DNA from: Affinirhizobium straminoryzae
GTDB taxonomy: Bacteria > Pseudomonadota > Alphaproteobacteria > Rhizobiales > Rhizobiaceae
Reading direction: 5' to 3'
Length of the DNA stretch: 64,000 nt
Assembly (NCBI RefSeq): GCF_007004135.1
Contig: NZ_VJMG01000011.1
Span: 1-64,000 of the forward strand
Below the pieces are notes generated by a model, which did not search any database, was not told where the DNA came from, and worked only from the letters and a program-made list of their open reading frames with translations. The position numbers and the translations under genes were made by a program. This document shows, one piece after another, positions 7,946-25,637 of this stretch; positions within the stretch are counted from its first letter, which is position 1, and each line of letters opens with the position of its first letter.

Positions 7946-8002
7946 GCCAGGGACTGAAGCGCGGCAACCTGTTCCATACGGGTTGCCGGGGTCCCGCCTG
8001 GC
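7946..8002. terminator. Nested hairpin between convergent rbtK and the LacI gene, likely shared terminator
   Basis: An inner stem CGGCAACC (7962-7969) pairs exactly with GGTTGCCG (7981-7988), and an outer pair GCCAGGGAC (7946-7954) with GTCCCGCCTGGC (7991-8002) extends it imperfectly. The structure lies between two convergent stops, one of which it touches. No clear T-run is present, so termination is inferred from position and stem strength. Confidence 0.6.
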
Positions 8003-9024
8003 TATCGCGAGCTCTCGCGTACGATGAGTTGCGGCTGCAGCGTCACGTCGGCTATCGTCTGTTCGCCGTTGAGGAGATCGAGGATGAGCGCCCCGGTGCG
8101 TTCGCCGATCTGGCGGGCATGGGCGTTGACGGTGGTCAGTGCCGGCACGGAAATGCCGCCGATCTCATAATCCCCGAAGCCGCCGATGGCCATTTGGTCC
8201 GGCACCCGCACACCGCGCCGCTGGCATTCTGTCAGGGCGCCGAAGGCTGAGAGGTCGGACACGCAGATGACCGCCTCCGTATCGGGCAGTTCGGTCAGCA
8301 AGCGGCCCATGGCATTGGCCCCTTCTCGCATGGAAATCGGCGGCGCTCCGGCATCGATCAGCCGCGACGCATCGAGCCCGTGATCCTTCAGAGCCGCGAT
8401 GAAGCCGTGACGGCGATCGGTGCCGCGCGTGTCCCGGCTGGCGTCACCGCCGATGAAGGCAATCCGGCGATAGCCGACGGCGACGAAATGATCGACCATG
8501 CCACGCACGGCCTTGGCATTGGAAAAGCCGACGAAATGGCCGATCGGTTCGGCCGGCACGTCCCAGGTCTCGATGACCGGAATTTTTGCGTTTTCGAGAA
8601 GCTTGCGGGCGCGCCGCGTGTGCTTGCCGCCAGTCACCGCGATCGCCTGCGGCTTGCGGCGCAGCAGATGCTCGATCAGCCGTTCTTCTTCCTCGACATC
8701 GTAATTGGTGTAGCCGAGCAGGATCTGGAAACCGCGGGCGCTGAGCACGGAGGACAGGCCGCCCACCGTATCGGCAAAGTTCGCATTGTTGATGGAGGGA
8801 ATGGTGACGGCGATGAAATCCGTTTTCTTCGAGCGCAGGTTGGAGGCCGTGGAATCGAAGACGTAGCCCAGTTCCTCCGCCGCCTTCAGGATGGCGTCGC
8901 GCGTTTCCTTGTTGATGAGGCTGCCGGACTTGAAGGCACGCGACACCGTCATCGGGGACACGCCCGTCTTGCGCGCAATATCCGCCATGGTCGGCGTTCT
9001 GTCGTTCTCCATGTCCCGCCCCAT
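8002..9024 (-). CDS. LacI-family regulator, GntR/IdnR-like (idonate/gluconate cluster)
   Basis: A 340-aa repressor-type protein. The N-terminal helix-turn-helix and hinge are clear (MADIARKTGVSPMTVSRAF, about residues 13-31), followed by a periplasmic-binding-protein-like effector domain (FIAVTIPSINN, ETWDVP, GFSNAKAV, IAFIGGD, VCVSDLSAFG, IGGFGDYEIGG). The wording around VGFSNAKA and FGALTECQRRG resembles the gluconate/idonate LacI group. It is the last gene of the minus operon (ATPase-permease-binding protein-lactonase-LacI). Its likely operators are the two TGTTATCGATAACA-like palindromes at 13786 and 13908. ATG at 9012 (fifth codon) is an alternative start. Confidence 0.9.
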   Translation of the reverse strand: MGRDMENDRTPTMADIARKTGVSPMTVSRAFKSGSLINKETRDAILKAAEELGYVFDSTASNLRSKKTDFIAVTIPSINNANFADTVGGLSSVLSARGFQILLGYTNYDVEEEERLIEHLLRRKPQAIAVTGGKHTRRARKLLENAKIPVIETWDVPAEPIGHFVGFSNAKAVRGMVDHFVAVGYRRIAFIGGDASRDTRGTDRRHGFIAALKDHGLDASRLIDAGAPPISMREGANAMGRLLTELPDTEAVICVSDLSAFGALTECQRRGVRVPDQMAIGGFGDYEIGGISVPALTTVNAHARQIGERTGALILDLLNGEQTIADVTLQPQLIVRESSR

Positions 9025-9036
9025 TTCTGCTGCCGC

Positions 9037-9942
9037 CTATCTTTGCCAGCCGATATGGCCGCGAATGGCGAGCGATACCGCATAGACCGAGGTGGTGGCC
9101 GTGATAAAGAGCCGATGGCCGTGCCGCCCGCCGAAACAGACGTTGGACACGGTTTCCGGCACCAGGATCTTGCCGAGGCGATGCCCGTCCGGCGCGATGC
9201 AATGAACGCCATCTGCGGCGGAGGACCAGAGATTGCCCGCCGCATCCACCCGCATGCCATCCGCACAACCGGGTGCTATGGTGTGGAACAGCTCACCGCC
9301 GGTCAGCCGCCAGCCGTCGCCGACGTCGAACACGCGGATATGGCGCGGATCATCGGAAAACATCCGGCCGGTATCTGCGACATAGAGCTTCGTCTCATCC
9401 GGACTGAAGGCAAGCCCGTTCGGGCAGGCGAAATCCGTCAGGACCGCCTGGATCTCGCCGTTCAGGGGATCGACACGGTAAACATTGCAGGGCAGTTCCT
9501 GCTCGCTGCGCGTGCCTTCGTAGTCGGTGGAGATGCCGTAGTGGGGATCACTGAACCAGATCGCGCCGTCCGAGGCGACGATCACGTCGTTCGGTGAATT
9601 CAGACGCCTGCCCTGGTAGCGATCGGCAATCACCGTGATCGTCCCGTCATGCTCGGTGCGGGTCACGCGGCGACCGCCATGTTCGCAGCTCACCAGCCGG
9701 CCCTGACGGTCGCGCGTGTGACCGTTCGAAAAATTGGAGGGCTCGCGATGGATGCTGACGCCGGTCACCGGGCTCCAGCGCATGATGCGGTTGTTGGGAA
9801 TGTCGGAAAACAGCAGACAGTCGTGGTCGCCGAACCAGACCGGCCCCTCCACCCAGTCAAACCCGCCGGCCAGCTTCTTGAGGGGCGCATTGCCCAGTAC
9901 AAAGGTGGAAAAGACCGGATCTTCAGCGTCGAAAAACGACAT
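9037..9942 (-). CDS. SMP-30/gluconolactonase-family lactonase
   Basis: A 301-aa six-bladed beta-propeller of the SMP-30/gluconolaconase/LRE family, enzymes that hydrolyse sugar lactones using a divalent metal. Typical elements are WVEGPVWFG near the N terminus (metal Glu), SNGHTRDRQGRLVSCEHGGR, LNSPNDVIVASDGAIWFSD, CPNGLAFSPDETKLYVADT and the later GCADGMRVDAAGNLWS. The ATG at 9942 was preferred to one twelve codons earlier, because GAGGAAAGAGG lies about 7 bases before it. No signal peptide is apparent, so it is probably cytoplasmic. It would open an imported aldonolactone to the acid that IdnD and IdnO act on; this role is inferred. Confidence 0.9.
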   Translation of the reverse strand: MSFFDAEDPVFSTFVLGNAPLKKLAGGFDWVEGPVWFGDHDCLLFSDIPNNRIMRWSPVTGVSIHREPSNFSNGHTRDRQGRLVSCEHGGRRVTRTEHDGTITVIADRYQGRRLNSPNDVIVASDGAIWFSDPHYGISTDYEGTRSEQELPCNVYRVDPLNGEIQAVLTDFACPNGLAFSPDETKLYVADTGRMFSDDPRHIRVFDVGDGWRLTGGELFHTIAPGCADGMRVDAAGNLWSSAADGVHCIAPDGHRLGKILVPETVSNVCFGGRHGHRLFITATTSVYAVSLAIRGHIGWQR

Positions 9943-18643: not shown

Positions 18644-19099
18644 ATGTTGACGAAAAAAGGGAAGTACGGCCTCAAGGCGCTCATTCATCTGGCGCGCCTC
18701 GAGAGTGGCGAGACGGCATTCGTGGCGGATATTGCCGCGAAGAACAATATTTCCAAGAAGTTCCTTGATACGATCCTCCTTGAACTGCGCAATGGCGGTC
18801 TGCTGCGCTCCAAGAAGGGACCGGGCGGAGGCTACGCGCTGTCCAAGCCGGCCAACGAAATCTTCATCGGTCAGGCCATCCGCATTCTCGATGGTCCGCT
18901 TGCCCCCATCCGCTGTGCGAGCAAGACCGCCTTCGAGCCCTGCGAGGATTGCGATCATCCGCAGGACTGTCAGATCCGCGCGACCATGACCGATGTTCGT
19001 GATGCCATTGCCTCGATCCTGGACAACATGTCGCTTGAGGAACTGGTGAACAAGAGTTCCCCCTCCGCCTCGGCGGTGAGCAGCCTGACCCAAGTCTGA
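18644..19099 (+). CDS. Rrf2-family transcriptional regulator
   Basis: A 151-aa winged-helix regulator of the Rrf2 family (IscR, NsrR, RirA, CymR). The N terminus MLTKKGKYGLKALIHLA and ISKKFLDTILLELRNGGLL, then KKGPGGGYAL, are typical. Four cysteines (C-x8-C-x2-C-x5-C, about residues 90-108) could bind an Fe-S cluster, although the spacing differs from IscR. It stands at the border of the idonate cluster and directly before the sulfur genes, so a CymR-like role in cysteine/sulfur supply is a reasonable guess; candidate sites are TCTA-N9-TAGA at 20962 and 26937. Unproven. Confidence 0.85.
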   Translation: MLTKKGKYGLKALIHLARLESGETAFVADIAAKNNISKKFLDTILLELRNGGLLRSKKGPGGGYALSKPANEIFIGQAIRILDGPLAPIRCASKTAFEPCEDCDHPQDCQIRATMTDVRDAIASILDNMSLEELVNKSSPSASAVSSLTQV

Positions 19100-19112: not shown

Positions 19113-20186
19113 TCAATAGGCGAATGGCCAGCGTGCCGGAATCGCGCCGCGGACATGGAGTTGTCCGAGCCTGCGTTTGGCCAGCTCATTTCGCACAGCC
19201 CAGGTGTCCGATTGCGATGGCAACCGGGCCGCGTCAAGGTCCTTCAGGATCTCCGCCGCCATCACGCAGGCCGAGCGGCACGACAGAGAGGCCTGCAATG
19301 CAAGCTGCGGGGTTGGGTCAACCTGCACCGAATCGACATGCTGCCCCGCCCGTTCGATAAGCGCGGACACGCCATCCAGGCGCGCAGCAAGCTCACCCAG
19401 CCTCACGAACTCCGCAGGGTATTCCGTCGGATTGCCCGCCTTTTCCTCAGCAGACAGGGCCAATTCGTTGAACACCCGCCGCGCCCGGCCCAGATCGACG
19501 GCAGCCTGCAACAGGCTTGCCAGACGTGTCAGCGTTGTCGTCTCGATGTCATCCTCTGCAAGCTCGACCAGGCTGCCTGCCGGAACCGCGATGCCCGAAC
19601 CTGCGGCGTCGTCCTCTATCGGTGCAAGCAGAGCCAGGAGACGCCGTCCCGCCGGATCAATGCAGGGGACCGCCAACCAGACGGGCCCAGCCTCTTCCTG
19701 TCGCGGCAGCGCCTCCGCCGGAAGCAGGAAACCTGCCTTGCCGGCGACAAGTGCGGGCCAGGAGACGGTCTCCTCCGCAATGGGATCGGCCGCAAGCAGA
19801 AAGATATCGCCGGCAAGCGCGCGCGTCAGCCACTCGGATGTCTGCCGACCGCCATCGGCGGCGCGAATGGCTTCCACCACGAGAAAATGACCGACCAGTC
19901 GTTGCGCCAGAGACGTGTCGCTGGCGGCAGCCAGAGCGATCATTTCGGCGATAACCGCATTGGCGATGTCCGCACCACCAAGATCGGCGGGCACCGACGT
20001 CCCGAGAAGACCGGCCTTGCCGAAGGAAAGCAGCGAAGGCGGGAGAGCATGGACCATCCGGTCATCCCCGTTCTGGCCGCTGGTTCGCTCCAGCAGCTGC
20101 CGGGTGGTGGTAATCACCTCCAGCTCGGTCGAAGGGTGGGTCATGGGAAAGGCGCGCTGATCAGGCAAGCGGTACACGTTGTGCAT
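19113..20186 (-). CDS. SfnB/DszC-type flavin-dependent monooxygenase (acyl-CoA dehydrogenase fold)
   Basis: A 357-aa protein with the acyl-CoA dehydrogenase fold but aligned best, by eye, with the desulfurisation monooxygenases (SfnB, DszC). These use reduced flavin from a partner reductase to oxidise organosulfur compounds. Visible are the N-terminal helical domain (SFGKAGLLGTSVPADLGGAD in sections), a weak middle beta domain and a C-terminal helical bundle (LSCRSACVMAAEILKDLDAA in part). The usual acyl-CoA catalytic Glu cannot be placed. The ATG at 20186 was chosen for GGAGG seven bases upstream. A flavin reductase gene precedes it on the same strand, fitting a two-component system. Substrate unknown. 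Confidence 0.75.
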   Translation of the reverse strand: MHNVYRLPDQRAFPMTHPSTELEVITTTRQLLERTSGQNGDDRMVHALPPSLLSFGKAGLLGTSVPADLGGADIANAVIAEMIALAAASDTSLAQRLVGHFLVVEAIRAADGGRQTSEWLTRALAGDIFLLAADPIAEETVSWPALVAGKAGFLLPAEALPRQEEAGPVWLAVPCIDPAGRRLLALLAPIEDDAAGSGIAVPAGSLVELAEDDIETTTLTRLASLLQAAVDLGRARRVFNELALSAEEKAGNPTEYPAEFVRLGELAARLDGVSALIERAGQHVDSVQVDPTPQLALQASLSCRSACVMAAEILKDLDAARLPSQSDTWAVRNELAKRRLGQLHVRGAIPARWPFAY

Positions 20187-20327
20187 GGATGACCTCCAGA
20201 GCTGACGGGAAATGCTGACATACCCCCGGTTTGCCCGGAAGGGCGAAATCCTGCACGCAACTGCGCCGCTGGAGCAAATTTTGCCCAAAGGCGCGCAGAC
20301 CGCGAAACCACGACGGCGATGATCCCG

Positions 20328-20879
20328 TCAACGCGGGCTGAGCCGGTGATAGGCGCCACCCTGATAGACCAGGGATTGCTCCCCGATCAGCCGTATGCCC
20401 TGCACGGCACCGATGACGATGACGTGGCTATGGCGTTCGATGGCTTCCTCGACAAGGCAGTCGATGCCGGCGATGGCGTCTTCCAGCAAGGGAGCACCCG
20501 TCGCAAGCGAAGTCCATTCGTGACCATTGTAGCGATCTGCGCCCTTCAGTCCGCCAACGCCTGCGAACTGATTGGCCAGGCCTTCATGGCCCGGACCAAC
20601 GATGTTGACGCCAAACCAGCCACTTTTCTGCAGGATGGGCCAGGTCGAAGAACTCCGGTTGAGAGCAACCATCATGCGTGGCGGATCGACGGAAAGCGCG
20701 GTCGCCGAGGTGACGGTCGCTCCGGTTCTCTCCTGGCCGCTGCCCGTGGTGATGATGCTCACGCCGCCGGCAAGCGTGCGGAGTGCGGCCTTCAGGCTTT
20801 CTGCATCGCCCGGACGTACGGCCGCGACGGGCTTCGCCGCATGCGTTTCGAAGACTTCGGGAGAAAACTGTTTCGTCAT
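20328..20879 (-). CDS. Flavin reductase (FMN-binding split-barrel, SsuE/DszD-like role)
   Basis: A 183-aa flavin reductase-like protein. Typical patterns are LRTLAGGVSIITT (near 32), TGATVTSATALSVDPPRMMVALN (in sections), GWFGVNIVG, WTSLATGAPLLEDAIAGIDC and HVIVIGAVQGIRL. It should supply FMNH2 to flavin-dependent monooxygenases by NAD(P)H oxidation. Here the partners would be the SfnB/DszC-like enzyme downstream and the SsuD domain at 22567-25248. It is divergent from the FAD gene at 21037, sharing a 157-base promoter region that holds a TCTA-N9-TAGA repeat. Confidence 0.88.
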   Translation of the reverse strand: MTKQFSPEVFETHAAKPVAAVRPGDAESLKAALRTLAGGVSIITTGSGQERTGATVTSATALSVDPPRMMVALNRSSSTWPILQKSGWFGVNIVGPGHEGLANQFAGVGGLKGADRYNGHEWTSLATGAPLLEDAIAGIDCLVEEAIERHSHVIVIGAVQGIRLIGEQSLVYQGGAYHRLSPR

Positions 20880-20978: not shown

Positions 20979-21036
20979 AATTTCCCCTACCGGAGCGGCC
21001 TCAACAAAGCCTGCGAAACCAGAGGTGAAAGTTGCG

Positions 21037-22515
21037 ATGCTGAAGCTTACCCTGCCTTCCAGAGCGGCGGCATTGCCCGCCAGGAGCCGCCGCATCGCCA
21101 TCGTCGGTGGTGGCTTCACCGGTGCTAGCCTTGCGCGCGTTCTGTCACGGCGTGCGCCTGACGATCGCGACGAAATCATCGTGTTCGAGCCGCGGGAACG
21201 GCTCGGTACAGGTCTTGCCTACGATACAACCGATCCGGATCTGCGTCTGCACGTGGCGGCCCATCGTATGAGGGCAATACCTGGCGATCCCGGCGCCTTC
21301 CTCGCCTGGCTGAAGCGCACGGGTCGCCTGGATGCCGACCCGCAGGCGCGCGATGGCGACGTGATCTATGCGCGGCGCGCGGATTTCGGTGCCTTCATGG
21401 AGGCAGAACTCGCTCCGCATCTCGAAAATGGCCGTGTCCGTCACATCAGGCGCCGTATCCAGGCGATAACCCGCGAAAACGGACACTGGCTGCTGACCGA
21501 CGCAACCGGTGAAGAGCATGCTGCGGATGTTGTCGTCATCGCCACCTCGCATCCGCCGGCAGCACCCGTGCCCGCGGTCCAATCCTCAGGCACCGCGTTT
21601 CCCCTGACGCCACAGCCCGGCCTGCTGGCGGTCGATCACATCAGCCCCGAAGACAGCGTCATCATCGCAGGCAGTGGCCTGACTGCGCTCGATCTGGTGA
21701 GCCTGCTGGCCGCACGCGGCCATCGCGGTCACATTACCCTGGTGTCGCGTCGCGGTCTTCTGCCGCGTCGCCAACCGGATGGCAACTTCACGCCGCATGG
21801 GGAGGCCCTGTTCGGCGATCCGCATTCGGCGCTCGAGCTGTTGCGTCGCGTGCGGGCTGCCGTCGATCGCGTCACCGGGCAGGGACTGCCCTGGCAGAGC
21901 GTGATGGACGCTCTGCGCCATGAGGCTCCCCGGCTTTGGGCGGCGCTTCCGGTCGGCGAACGGCGACGTGTCCGCCGCCACCTCTCCCGATGGTATGATG
22001 TCCATCGGCATCGCATGACGCCAGCCATGGCCGATTTGATCAGCACCCTGCAGGCTGAGCACCGTCTGACCACCATGGCAGGGCATATCCTCGCTGTGGA
22101 GGCGGATGCGCGTGGTGTTGTGATGACGCTAAGGAGCCAGTCGTCGCCTCGCATCGTGCGGGCCGATCATCTGATGGTCGCCACGGGTCCGGATTGCGCG
22201 CATGTGATCGCACATCAACCCTACCTGCAGCATCTGCAGGCCGCCGGGTTCGTGGTGCCGGATGCCTTCGGGTTCGGCCTTGCCTGCGACAGTGACAGCC
22301 GGGCGCTTGCGCGCGACGGTCACCCGGTTACCGATCTCTACATTGCCGGACCTCTGGCGCGCGGCACGTTTGGCGAGTTGATGGCCGTGCCGGAAATCGC
22401 CGCGCAGACGGAGCAGGTCGCCCGTCACATCCTGCGGCCGGCCAGCCGCACCTCCCGCACCCTGTTCATTCGCAGCCTGCCCTCACCGGTTCCCGTCGCA
22501 GTGGCCAGCCCCTAG
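21037..22515 (+). CDS. FAD/NAD(P)-binding protein (NAD_binding_9-type)
   Basis: A 492-aa flavoprotein-like protein with an N-terminal dinucleotide motif IAIVGGGFTGASLARVL (about 19-35), the GTGLAYDTTDPDLRLHVAAHRM region (read in sections) and the second motif VIIAGSGLTALDLVSLLA near residue 211. It belongs to the poorly characterised group of FAD-NAD(P)-binding proteins often found near sulfonate or siderophore genes. It is a paralogue of the N-terminal half of the fusion protein encoded convergently at 22567-25248 (same [28 protein letters not shown] segments). ATG at 21037 is preferred; GTG at 21025 is possible. Function unknown. Confidence 0.8.
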   Translation: MLKLTLPSRAAALPARSRRIAIVGGGFTGASLARVLSRRAPDDRDEIIVFEPRERLGTGLAYDTTDPDLRLHVAAHRMRAIPGDPGAFLAWLKRTGRLDADPQARDGDVIYARRADFGAFMEAELAPHLENGRVRHIRRRIQAITRENGHWLLTDATGEEHAADVVVIATSHPPAAPVPAVQSSGTAFPLTPQPGLLAVDHISPEDSVIIAGSGLTALDLVSLLAARGHRGHITLVSRRGLLPRRQPDGNFTPHGEALFGDPHSALELLRRVRAAVDRVTGQGLPWQSVMDALRHEAPRLWAALPVGERRRVRRHLSRWYDVHRHRMTPAMADLISTLQAEHRLTTMAGHILAVEADARGVVMTLRSQSSPRIVRADHLMVATGPDCAHVIAHQPYLQHLQAAGFVVPDAFGFGLACDSDSRALARDGHPVTDLYIAGPLARGTFGELMAVPEIAAQTEQVARHILRPASRTSRTLFIRSLPSPVPVAVASP

Positions 22516-22566: not shown

Positions 22567-25248
22567 TCACGAGCCGGAGGCAACACGCACATTGCCGCCG
22601 TGACCGCCGCCGCCAAACACCTGGCGCTTGCCGAACGACGAGCGGATCTGGTTGCGCGGACCGGCGAGCCCGATTTCCGGGAACAGCAGTTCCGAGACGC
22701 GGTAGGCCTCTTCGAGATGCGGATAACCGGAGGCGATCACCGTATCGATACCGATCTCCTGATATTCGCGCAGCCGCGCGGCAATCGTTTTCGGCGAGCC
22801 GACCAGCGCTGTCCCTGCTCCGGAGCGCACCAGTCCGATGCCGGCCCAGAGATTGGGCGAAACCTCCAGCTTGTCGCGACGGCCCTGGTGGAGGGCAACC
22901 ATGCGTGCCTGCCCGACGGAATCGGAATTCTTCGCAAAGACCTCCTGTGCAGCGGCAATCGTCTCGTCAGACAGGCGCGAGATCAGCCGGTCCGCTGCTG
23001 CCCAGGCCTCTTCATCCGTTTCGCGGACGATGAAATGCAGACGAATGCCGAAGCTCACCTGCCGGCCCTTCGCCGCCGCCGCCCTTTTCACCTTTTCAAC
23101 CTTTTCGGCCACCTGTGCCGGCGGTTCGCCCCAGGTGAGATACTTGTCGATGATGCCTGCCGAGAAATCGATGGCTGCATCGGAGGAGCCGCCGAAGTAG
23201 ATGGGCGGGCGCGGCGACTGGACCGGCGGCAGTCCCAGTTCGGCATTGTGGGCCTGGATGTATTTTCCATCGAGATGCGCCTTGCCGTTCTCAATGAGCC
23301 CGTTGAACACCTGGAAGAACTCGTCCGCATGGGCGTAGCGCTCGTCATGCGGCAAAAAGATGCCGTCGCCGGCCAGTTCCTGTGCACTGCCGCCCACGAC
23401 GATGTTGAGCAGAAGCCTGCCATTGCTGACGCGGTCCAAGGTCGAGGTCAGCCGCGCATAGTAGGCGGGCGAGGCAACACCCGGACGGATCGCCACCAGA
23501 AACTTCAGCTGTTCTGTGTGGGCGGCCAGATCGGCGGCCAGAATGAAGGATTCCTCGCAGGCAACACCCGTCGGGATGAGAACGCCGGAATAGCCCAGGC
23601 GATCGACGGCCCTGGCAATCTCGCGAAAATAACCGGGATCGGCGGGACGGGCGAGTTCGTCGGAGCCGAGATAGGCTCCATCGCCAGACGAGGGTATGAA
23701 CCACAGGAAATCGAGCGGTTTGTCGGCGGCTGCCATATTGAAAATCCTTGCTGAGGGAGAAGGGGCGCGGCGCACCTGGCTCGCGTCCGAGGAAAGCGAA
23801 ACGAACTGATCCGGTTGCGACGGCGGTGGGTTCACGCTGCCGCTTCGGCGTTGGGCGACTGCTGCAAGAGTTTCTGCCACATGATCGGCCACGAAGACGG
23901 CATGCTCCGCCACCTGCGGCAGCCCCATGAGTTCGCCGAAGGTGCCGCGCGCCAGCGGTCCTGCAATGAGCAGGGACGGATCGGCCGTGCCATCGGCACG
24001 GATCGCGCGTGACGCAAGATCGCAGGCGATGCCAAGCCCCGTCGGGCAGAGCTGAAGATGTCCGGCCTGTGCGAGATCTCGGAGGAAAGGCTGGGAATTG
24101 AGGATGGTATCGTGGGCCGGCCCGGTCGTGACGACGATACGATCGACATCGACCTCAAGGTGCCCTTTGCCACGGATACGAAGATGCACCCGGAACCCTC
24201 TGTCGTTCGCCTCCACGTCCGTCACTGCAGCGGCGAGAATCCGAAGCTGGTCCGTGGCGAGAGCCGTCTCCACCACCTGCTCGACCTGGGGGGCGATGCG
24301 AAAGCGATGAACATCCCAGTAGGGACGTGCGTGGCGGGCCAGGCGGCGACGCTCGAGAACGGGCAGAGCTTGCCAGATGGTCAGAGCCTGCGCGCGCACA
24401 GCATCGATCACTGCATGCCAGCTGAGATTTGCGGCGTCTGCTGTACGTAGAGCCACACGGATATGGCGGAGAAGCTCCGAGGCCGTTTTCGCCGGTTGTG
24501 TCGAGAAATCGCCATGCGGATCCTGTGACACCGGCGCATGGCCGCGGGAGCGCAGACCCCTGCGGGAGATCGCAACGATGCTACCGCGATGACCGAAACG
24601 GCTCAGCGATGCTATGACATCGGCCGATGTGAGCCCGTTACCGACAATCAGCACGCGATCATCGGGTTCAATGCCGGAGATGGCCTCGACCTTCGAGGCA
24701 TCCGCGACGAGATGTGGATGGTCGGCAACCGCGCGCAAGGGGGCAGGCAGCTTCGGCATCGGATGGGTTGTGGCAAGAACGAGAATATCGGCCGTCCAAC
24801 TTGCGCCATGCTCGTCCGTAATGCGCCAGCTCTCAGCCTCGCGGAGAACGGATACAACAAGCGCGCGCCTGTGCTCGATAGCGCCTCCTGCTATATGCGG
24901 TTGCAATTCGGAGGCGACATAGGCGCCGAACACCGCCCGGCTCGGATAGAGTTCACCGTCCGTACCCACGACATCGGGGTCAGCGAGCACGGAGGCATCG
25001 CTGGCGGCAAAGCGCTGAAAGCTGTCGGGATCCGCCGGATCGATCGACATCCGGGATGCCGGTACATTGATCCGGTGTGCCGGGTCGCGCGCGCCATAAG
25101 CGAGGCCTGCGCCAAGCCGGGCGCTCGGTTCGAAGAGGATGATGCGGCCCACCTGTCCGTGACGCCGCAGCAAGTGCAGCGCCACAGCTGCGCCACTGAA
25201 ACCGCCGCCGATCACGGCTACGGTCTTCCCCTTGCCACTGAACGTCAT
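22567..25248 (-). CDS. Fused FAD/NAD(P)-binding protein and FMNH2-dependent alkanesulfonate monooxygenase (SsuD-like)
   Basis: An 893-aa open frame carrying two complete proteins. Residues 1 to about 460 are an FAD/NAD(P)-binding protein ([17 protein letters not shown] at about 10-26; [17 protein letters not shown] near 205). Residues 505-893 are a full-length bacterial luciferase-type SsuD ([63 protein letters not shown]), which oxidises alkanesulfonates to aldehyde and sulfite with FMNH2. A Pro/Ser/Gln-rich linker of about 45 residues joins them. An internal ATG at 23736 with AAGGA upstream could also give free SsuD. ATG 25248 is preferred (GGAGAGG before it). Two small genes precede it in the operon. 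Confidence 0.85.
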
Positions 25249-25288
25249 GCACCTCTCCACTGACGATTACGAATTGTGACGCTTCCCG

Positions 25289-25429
25289 TCACACGGCGAG
25301 AACCATCAGGAGAATGAAGGCAAAGGACGCTGCACATGCCACACCCGCCAGCAGATCTTGGAACTGGATCGGTGGGCGGGAGATGACGTCCACGGTGCGA
25401 TGCGTGAAGCGGTCGGTAATATAGGCCAT
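25289..25429 (-). CDS. Small single-pass membrane protein, 46 aa, unknown
   Basis: A very short gene whose ATG at 25429 has GGGAG about eight bases upstream. The product has a polar N-terminal half (MAYITDRFTHRTVDVIS) and one hydrophobic C-terminal helix (FQDLLAGVACAASFAFILL and on), so a single membrane span is likely. It lies between a second small gene and the FAD-SsuD fusion, all on the minus strand with gaps of 13 and 40 bases. I recognise no family. The good ribosome site and operon position favour a real gene, but it is small enough to be chance. Confidence 0.55.
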   Translation of the reverse strand: MAYITDRFTHRTVDVISRPPIQFQDLLAGVACAASFAFILLMVLAV

Positions 25430-25442
25430 GATCGCTCTCCCT

Positions 25443-25637
25443 TCAGAGAACCGGGAAGGCGACGAGACCCCAGAAGGCCACGTCCTCGTTGATCCGACGG
25501 GTCCGCTCGTCATCAGTCTCGTCGGCACGATGCGATGGATCGACAAGCGGTGCTGCCGGACGGGGCTCCGTTACCGGATGCGGGCGGCGCAGGAATGCGA
25601 ACAAGTCGAAGGAAAATCCATGAAATGCGTGCGGCAT
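25443..25637 (-). CDS. Small hypothetical protein, 64 aa
   Basis: A 64-aa reading frame with ATG at 25637 and GGAG-AAGG upstream. The sequence is rich in Pro, His, Asp and Arg, with a charged middle (SHRADETDDERTRRINED) and a short hydrophobic end (VAFWGLVAFPVL). It would be the first gene of the operon leading to the FAD-SsuD fusion. No family recognised; an accessory or leader role cannot be judged from sequence. Confidence 0.5.
   Translation of the reverse strand: MPHAFHGFSFDLFAFLRRPHPVTEPRPAAPLVDPSHRADETDDERTRRINEDVAFWGLVAFPVL

Follow-up and report, generated by a model that had tools for sequence, protein, structure and literature searches.

A reading frame joining an FAD/NAD(P)-binding protein to the alkanesulfonate monooxygenase SsuD in Affinirhizobium straminoryzae

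The fused frame and its neighbourhood

The window, a 64,000-nucleotide stretch of the Affinirhizobium straminoryzae genome, carries on its minus strand a gene of 893 codons plus stop (25248-22567), counted from the ATG at 25248; the ORF listing gives the same frame as 22567-25260 (-), with 897 aa and a GTG start. By the ORF list, Pfam and NCBIfam, the entire frame (22567-25248) encodes a fusion of an FAD protein to SsuD. An uninterrupted 893-codon frame with two domains had been described in the initial annotation, which named no strand but whose coordinates are right; both domains look complete. The N-terminal FAD/NAD(P)-binding domain (aa 1-465; 23854-25248, minus strand) contains NAD_binding_9 (PF13454, Pfam) at aa 11-162, with 120.9 bits against a cut-off of 21.8. 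A linker of low codon score follows (aa 466-504; 23737-23853, minus strand), probably a former C-terminal tail plus spacer, and then SsuD (aa 505-893; 22570-23736, minus strand).

The SsuD assignment rests on NCBIfam and on alignments. TIGR03565, the equivalog family of FMNH2-dependent alkanesulfonate monooxygenases, matches aa 513-859 with 577.7 bits (cut-off 518.2), the second half of the fusion covering profile positions 1-346 of 346, and Pfam places Bac_luciferase at aa 514-835. In a phmmer alignment to 1m41, with E. coli residue positions counted by hand, C54, W196, R226, H228, R297 and Y331, which we take to be active-site residues of E. coli SsuD, are identical in the fusion. The protein thus resembles E. 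coli SsuD (1m41/1nqk) in its full-length family match above the cut-off and in these six conserved residues, and differs from it in the upstream flavoprotein attached to SsuD in this genome. Four more SsuD-like matches occur in the same genome, with identities of 33-47%.

The initial annotation had also pointed to an internal start, and an ATG is indeed present at 23736 with a Shine-Dalgarno-like AAGGA (23745-23749, minus strand) eight bases ahead; translation from it would yield an SsuD of 389 aa. Among the 26 relatives with an adjacent pair in the same order, SsuD is 389 aa long in 19, while upstream of ssuD AAGGA lies within 20 nt in 15 and GGAG occurs in two more. Since the start at 23736 is intact and would give the length seen in 19 of these relatives, free SsuD is probably still made beside the fusion.

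The fusion is surrounded by sulfur genes on all sides. A flavin reductase gene (PF01613, from profile matches; 20331-20879, minus strand) lies 1.7 kb from it and is a possible source of FMNH2; an Rrf2-type regulator is found at 18644 and, at 19113-20243, a protein that matches SfnB below the threshold. On the other side are a serine hydrolase (26036), a sulfate-binding transport protein (26983), an SsuB-like ATPase scoring below the cut-off (30919) and an SsuC permease (31671). The convergent free paralogue of the first domain that had been noted earlier is confirmed at 21025-22515 (+); it matches PF13454 in Pfam and shares 38% identity with the fused domain. Directly upstream of the fusion, a small ORF (25289-25546, minus strand) encodes a hydrophobic C-terminus and has no Pfam match.

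Fold of the FAD domain

The AlphaFold2 model of the FAD domain has a mean pLDDT of 91.6 and contains two dinucleotide-binding domains that are arranged, as modelled, as in NMOs of class B. A Foldseek search with this model returned PvdA, SidA and DesB in its first rows, and disulfide reductases match too; the domain is thus predicted to fold like N-hydroxylating monooxygenases and disulfide reductases. Over the domain PF13434 reaches 26.5 bits against a cut-off of 21.3, yet no single stretch passes alone. Among known systems the closest to the FAD domain are the class B flavin N-monooxygenases (PvdA, SidA, DesB and the aspartate N-hydroxylase FzmM), although the domain gave only weak matches against PDB sequences, with FzmM absent among the matches listed. 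Seven conserved arginines (R264, R285, R302, R305, R308, R315 and R317) sit in the helical part of the model and show no more than a resemblance to the arginine site described for FzmM (PMC10404684).

Relatives of the FAD domain are readily aligned, 36 of 49 being 51-61% identical to the fused one. An alignment (A2) that combined the fusion with both FAD and SsuD sequences was discarded, as its FAD rows were misplaced, at 17-23% identity compared with mostly 50-61% in A1.

We searched the fusion for flavin reductase families and found no match to PF01613 or to an FMN reductase family among the matches at E up to 0.001, so that the chain carrying the monooxygenase shows no known domain of that kind. 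This bears on the proposal of the initial annotation that the locus encodes a self-contained desulfonation enzyme, and on the related reading of a fusion kept by selection in which the flavoprotein gives SsuD reduced flavin or electrons, or passes on its substrate. That both domains look intact is consistent with such an enzyme. However, the N-terminal domain has the predicted fold of N-monooxygenases and disulfide reductases and matches no flavin reductase family; class B enzymes, as a matter of general knowledge, hold on to their bound FAD; and in SsuD systems FMNH2 is supplied by a separate reductase. With the PF01613 gene at 20331-20879 nearby, a built-in flavin supply would be unnecessary, though still possible.

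Gene order in relatives

We read 123 loci which, after removal of 16 duplicates and five without ssuD, left 102 distinct ssuD loci. The FAD gene lies upstream of ssuD on the same strand and within 400 nt in 26 of them (within 60 nt in 13 of these), farther upstream in four, downstream on the same strand in 13, and on the opposite strand in 12. It is therefore near ssuD, in any order or strand, in 55 of the 102 loci, a figure biased towards the pairing because the sample was not random: many loci were chosen because both halves of the fusion matched there, and some of the stretches covered no more than about 4 kb. This frequency makes some functional link likely, and counts in favour of a selected fusion; against it, 47 of the 102 loci have no full FAD gene in the fetched stretch, one of these having pieces only. 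That one stands for L052, L053 and L077 (Rhizobium lusitanum, R. leucaenae and R. freirei; about 8000-9265), where the FAD gene matches only in pieces and ssuD is complete, so that SsuD is retained there without an intact FAD partner.

The closest relatives of the locus are other Rhizobiaceae. In Rhizobium lemnae, Agrobacterium rubi and Sinorhizobium the PF13454 protein precedes ssuD in the same order and on the same strand as in the fusion, but as a separate gene with a stop ahead of ssuD. Such a stop is present in all 26 distinct relatives of this order and strand within 400 nt, and lies 22-51 nt ahead of ssuD in 13 of them. In the nearest relative, R. lemnae, SsuD is 92% identical and the FAD gene stops 32 nt ahead of ssuD. 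We infer that the separate gene pair is the ancestral state. The FastTree branch of the fused FAD domain (0.348) is close to that of R. lemnae (0.373), and so the fused domain gives no sign of faster change.

Search for a second fusion

Five overlapping searches, of 60, 57, 394, 397 and 385 genomes, gave an uninterrupted match across both halves only in the window's own genome, among the matches listed. In one of the searches two other genomes (G324 and G265) have matches across both halves, but with stops inside. Seven candidates for a second fusion, in G314 (930 aa), G574 (867), G653 (950), G516 (911), G739 (1147), G1150 (850) and G580 (860), were rejected, as their DNA shows separate or lone genes; the open frames of G314 and G574 are listed at 930 and 867 aa despite stops between their two genes in the DNA. 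Frames shorter than 840 aa were read only in part, in three of the searches no more than two candidates from each genome were scored, and only the matches listed were considered, so a rare fusion could escape. Likewise, genomes very near the window's own may be missing from some of the collections, and sister isolates sharing the fusion could thus be hidden. Among plasmid records (the best 30 of 1125 and the best 10 of 336, judged from record listings rather than bases), the best 30 of 1125 show the FAD protein and ssuD apart, or one alone, where features are named. In the literature, no title among the matches listed concerned an SsuD fusion or the FAD partner, most subscription journals lying outside the scope of the search.

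A Rosetta-stone fusion would be conserved in more than one lineage, whereas none of the 26 adjacent relatives is fused. The lack of fused relatives was half of what the initial annotation had said would count against its reading, and no genome with the same domain order fused appeared among the matches listed. Of that reading, the complete domains and the possible free SsuD find support; the undescribed system does not, the pair being separate in 26 of 26 adjacent relatives with no fused relative among the matches listed, and neither does the self-contained enzyme. Kept in no relative seen, and with a separate flavin reductase gene nearby, a fusion maintained by selection is in our judgement highly improbable.

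Origin of the fusion

No stop is left in frame between the FAD domain and SsuD, and because this stop is missing the two genes read as one long protein. Over aa 457-504 the codon score amounts to -0.134 per codon, which is below that of 48 of 49 tails from relatives (duplicates counted, and with the codon table of the window itself used for scoring), and over aa 100-436 of the fusion it is 0.25. By codon usage the linker thus leans weakly towards a former spacer or a loose tail. Tails of the relatives' FAD proteins extend 12-58 codons beyond the conserved part, which makes it possible that some of the linker is normal tail, and they are too poorly conserved to tell a changed stop from a slipped frame. 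The +1 frame has a TGA at 23832-23834 (minus strand), close to the end of the FAD domain, which is a weak candidate for the ancestral stop given a frame slip. With this TGA left out, the +1 frame outscores the used frame over aa 460-472, as in 2.9% of null stretches for a region picked after looking; with the stop codon counted, the used frame scores -1.94 and the +1 frame -3.92. The linker codon tests are weak throughout, their regions having been picked after looking (2.9% and 3.3% of null stretches). The poor linker score and the TGA in the +1 frame leave both a changed stop and a slipped frame possible.

The same observations bear on whether one or a few wrong bases, from sequencing or assembly, mask a stop between two ordinary genes. 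The fusion is absent from every relative examined, the source assembly is a draft of 137 contigs, and the +1 frame, with its TGA, is the better one over aa 460-472 as long as the stop is not counted. Once it is counted, however, the used frame is not worse, and the gene layout, an informal gauge of the error rate, has no obvious run of broken genes, with 60 coding-like ORFs over 89.6% of the window. As the fusion occurs in one genome only, a true mutation looks the same as a sequence error without reads; we regard an error as the less probable origin, though one to be taken seriously.

We favour, with some but by no means full confidence, a loss of the stop in this one genome that fused two operon neighbours, kept the start of free SsuD and created a link that adds little. 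The FAD enzyme (PF13454, with its N-monooxygenase-like fold) and SsuD would have been joined when the intervening stop was lost, either by a change at the stop itself or by a one-base frame slip towards the 3' end of the FAD gene. Ribosomes reading through would then make the long two-domain protein, of about 97 kDa by the estimate of the initial annotation, while the intact old ssuD start would still give the free 389-residue SsuD. FMNH2 would come from a separate flavin reductase, perhaps that at 20331-20879, as in known SsuD systems, and SsuD would act as it does in relatives.

Meaning of the FAD-SsuD pairing

As a single case without known relatives, the fusion as such carries little weight; a joining that happened once, or an error in the sequence, seems a better description of it than a new kind of enzyme. 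The point deserving work is why an arginine-rich FAD enzyme so often adjoins SsuD: in Rhizobiaceae, and in some other alphaproteobacteria too, its gene frequently accompanies ssuD for no evident reason, before or after it and on either strand. The modelled fold of this enzyme is more in keeping with an oxygenase or reductase than with a protein that supplies flavin.

One way to view the FAD partner is as an unrecognised NADPH-dependent monooxygenase of Rhizobiales sulfonate assimilation, whose arginine-rich helical domain would bind cysteate or taurine to be oxidised for SsuD, the fusion tying both steps together; we think this improbable. Binding of anionic amino-sulfonates would then resemble, by an analogy that we hold just as doubtful, the handling of aspartate and sulfate by aspartate N-hydroxylase. 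On the same supposition, the fusion might reveal by accident that both steps share one pathway, an outcome to which we give little credence. If the FAD enzyme does act on sulfonates, it would supply a missing step in sulfur acquisition by soil bacteria.

A second type of FAD protein, 36-42% identical to the fused one, is encoded convergently to ssuD in nine loci (L063, L064, L073, L074, L078, L081, L084, L093 and L099). Six of these nine proteins, aligned with the window's own paralogue at 21025-22515, show 44-48% identity to it, and the window carries both FAD types beside ssuD.
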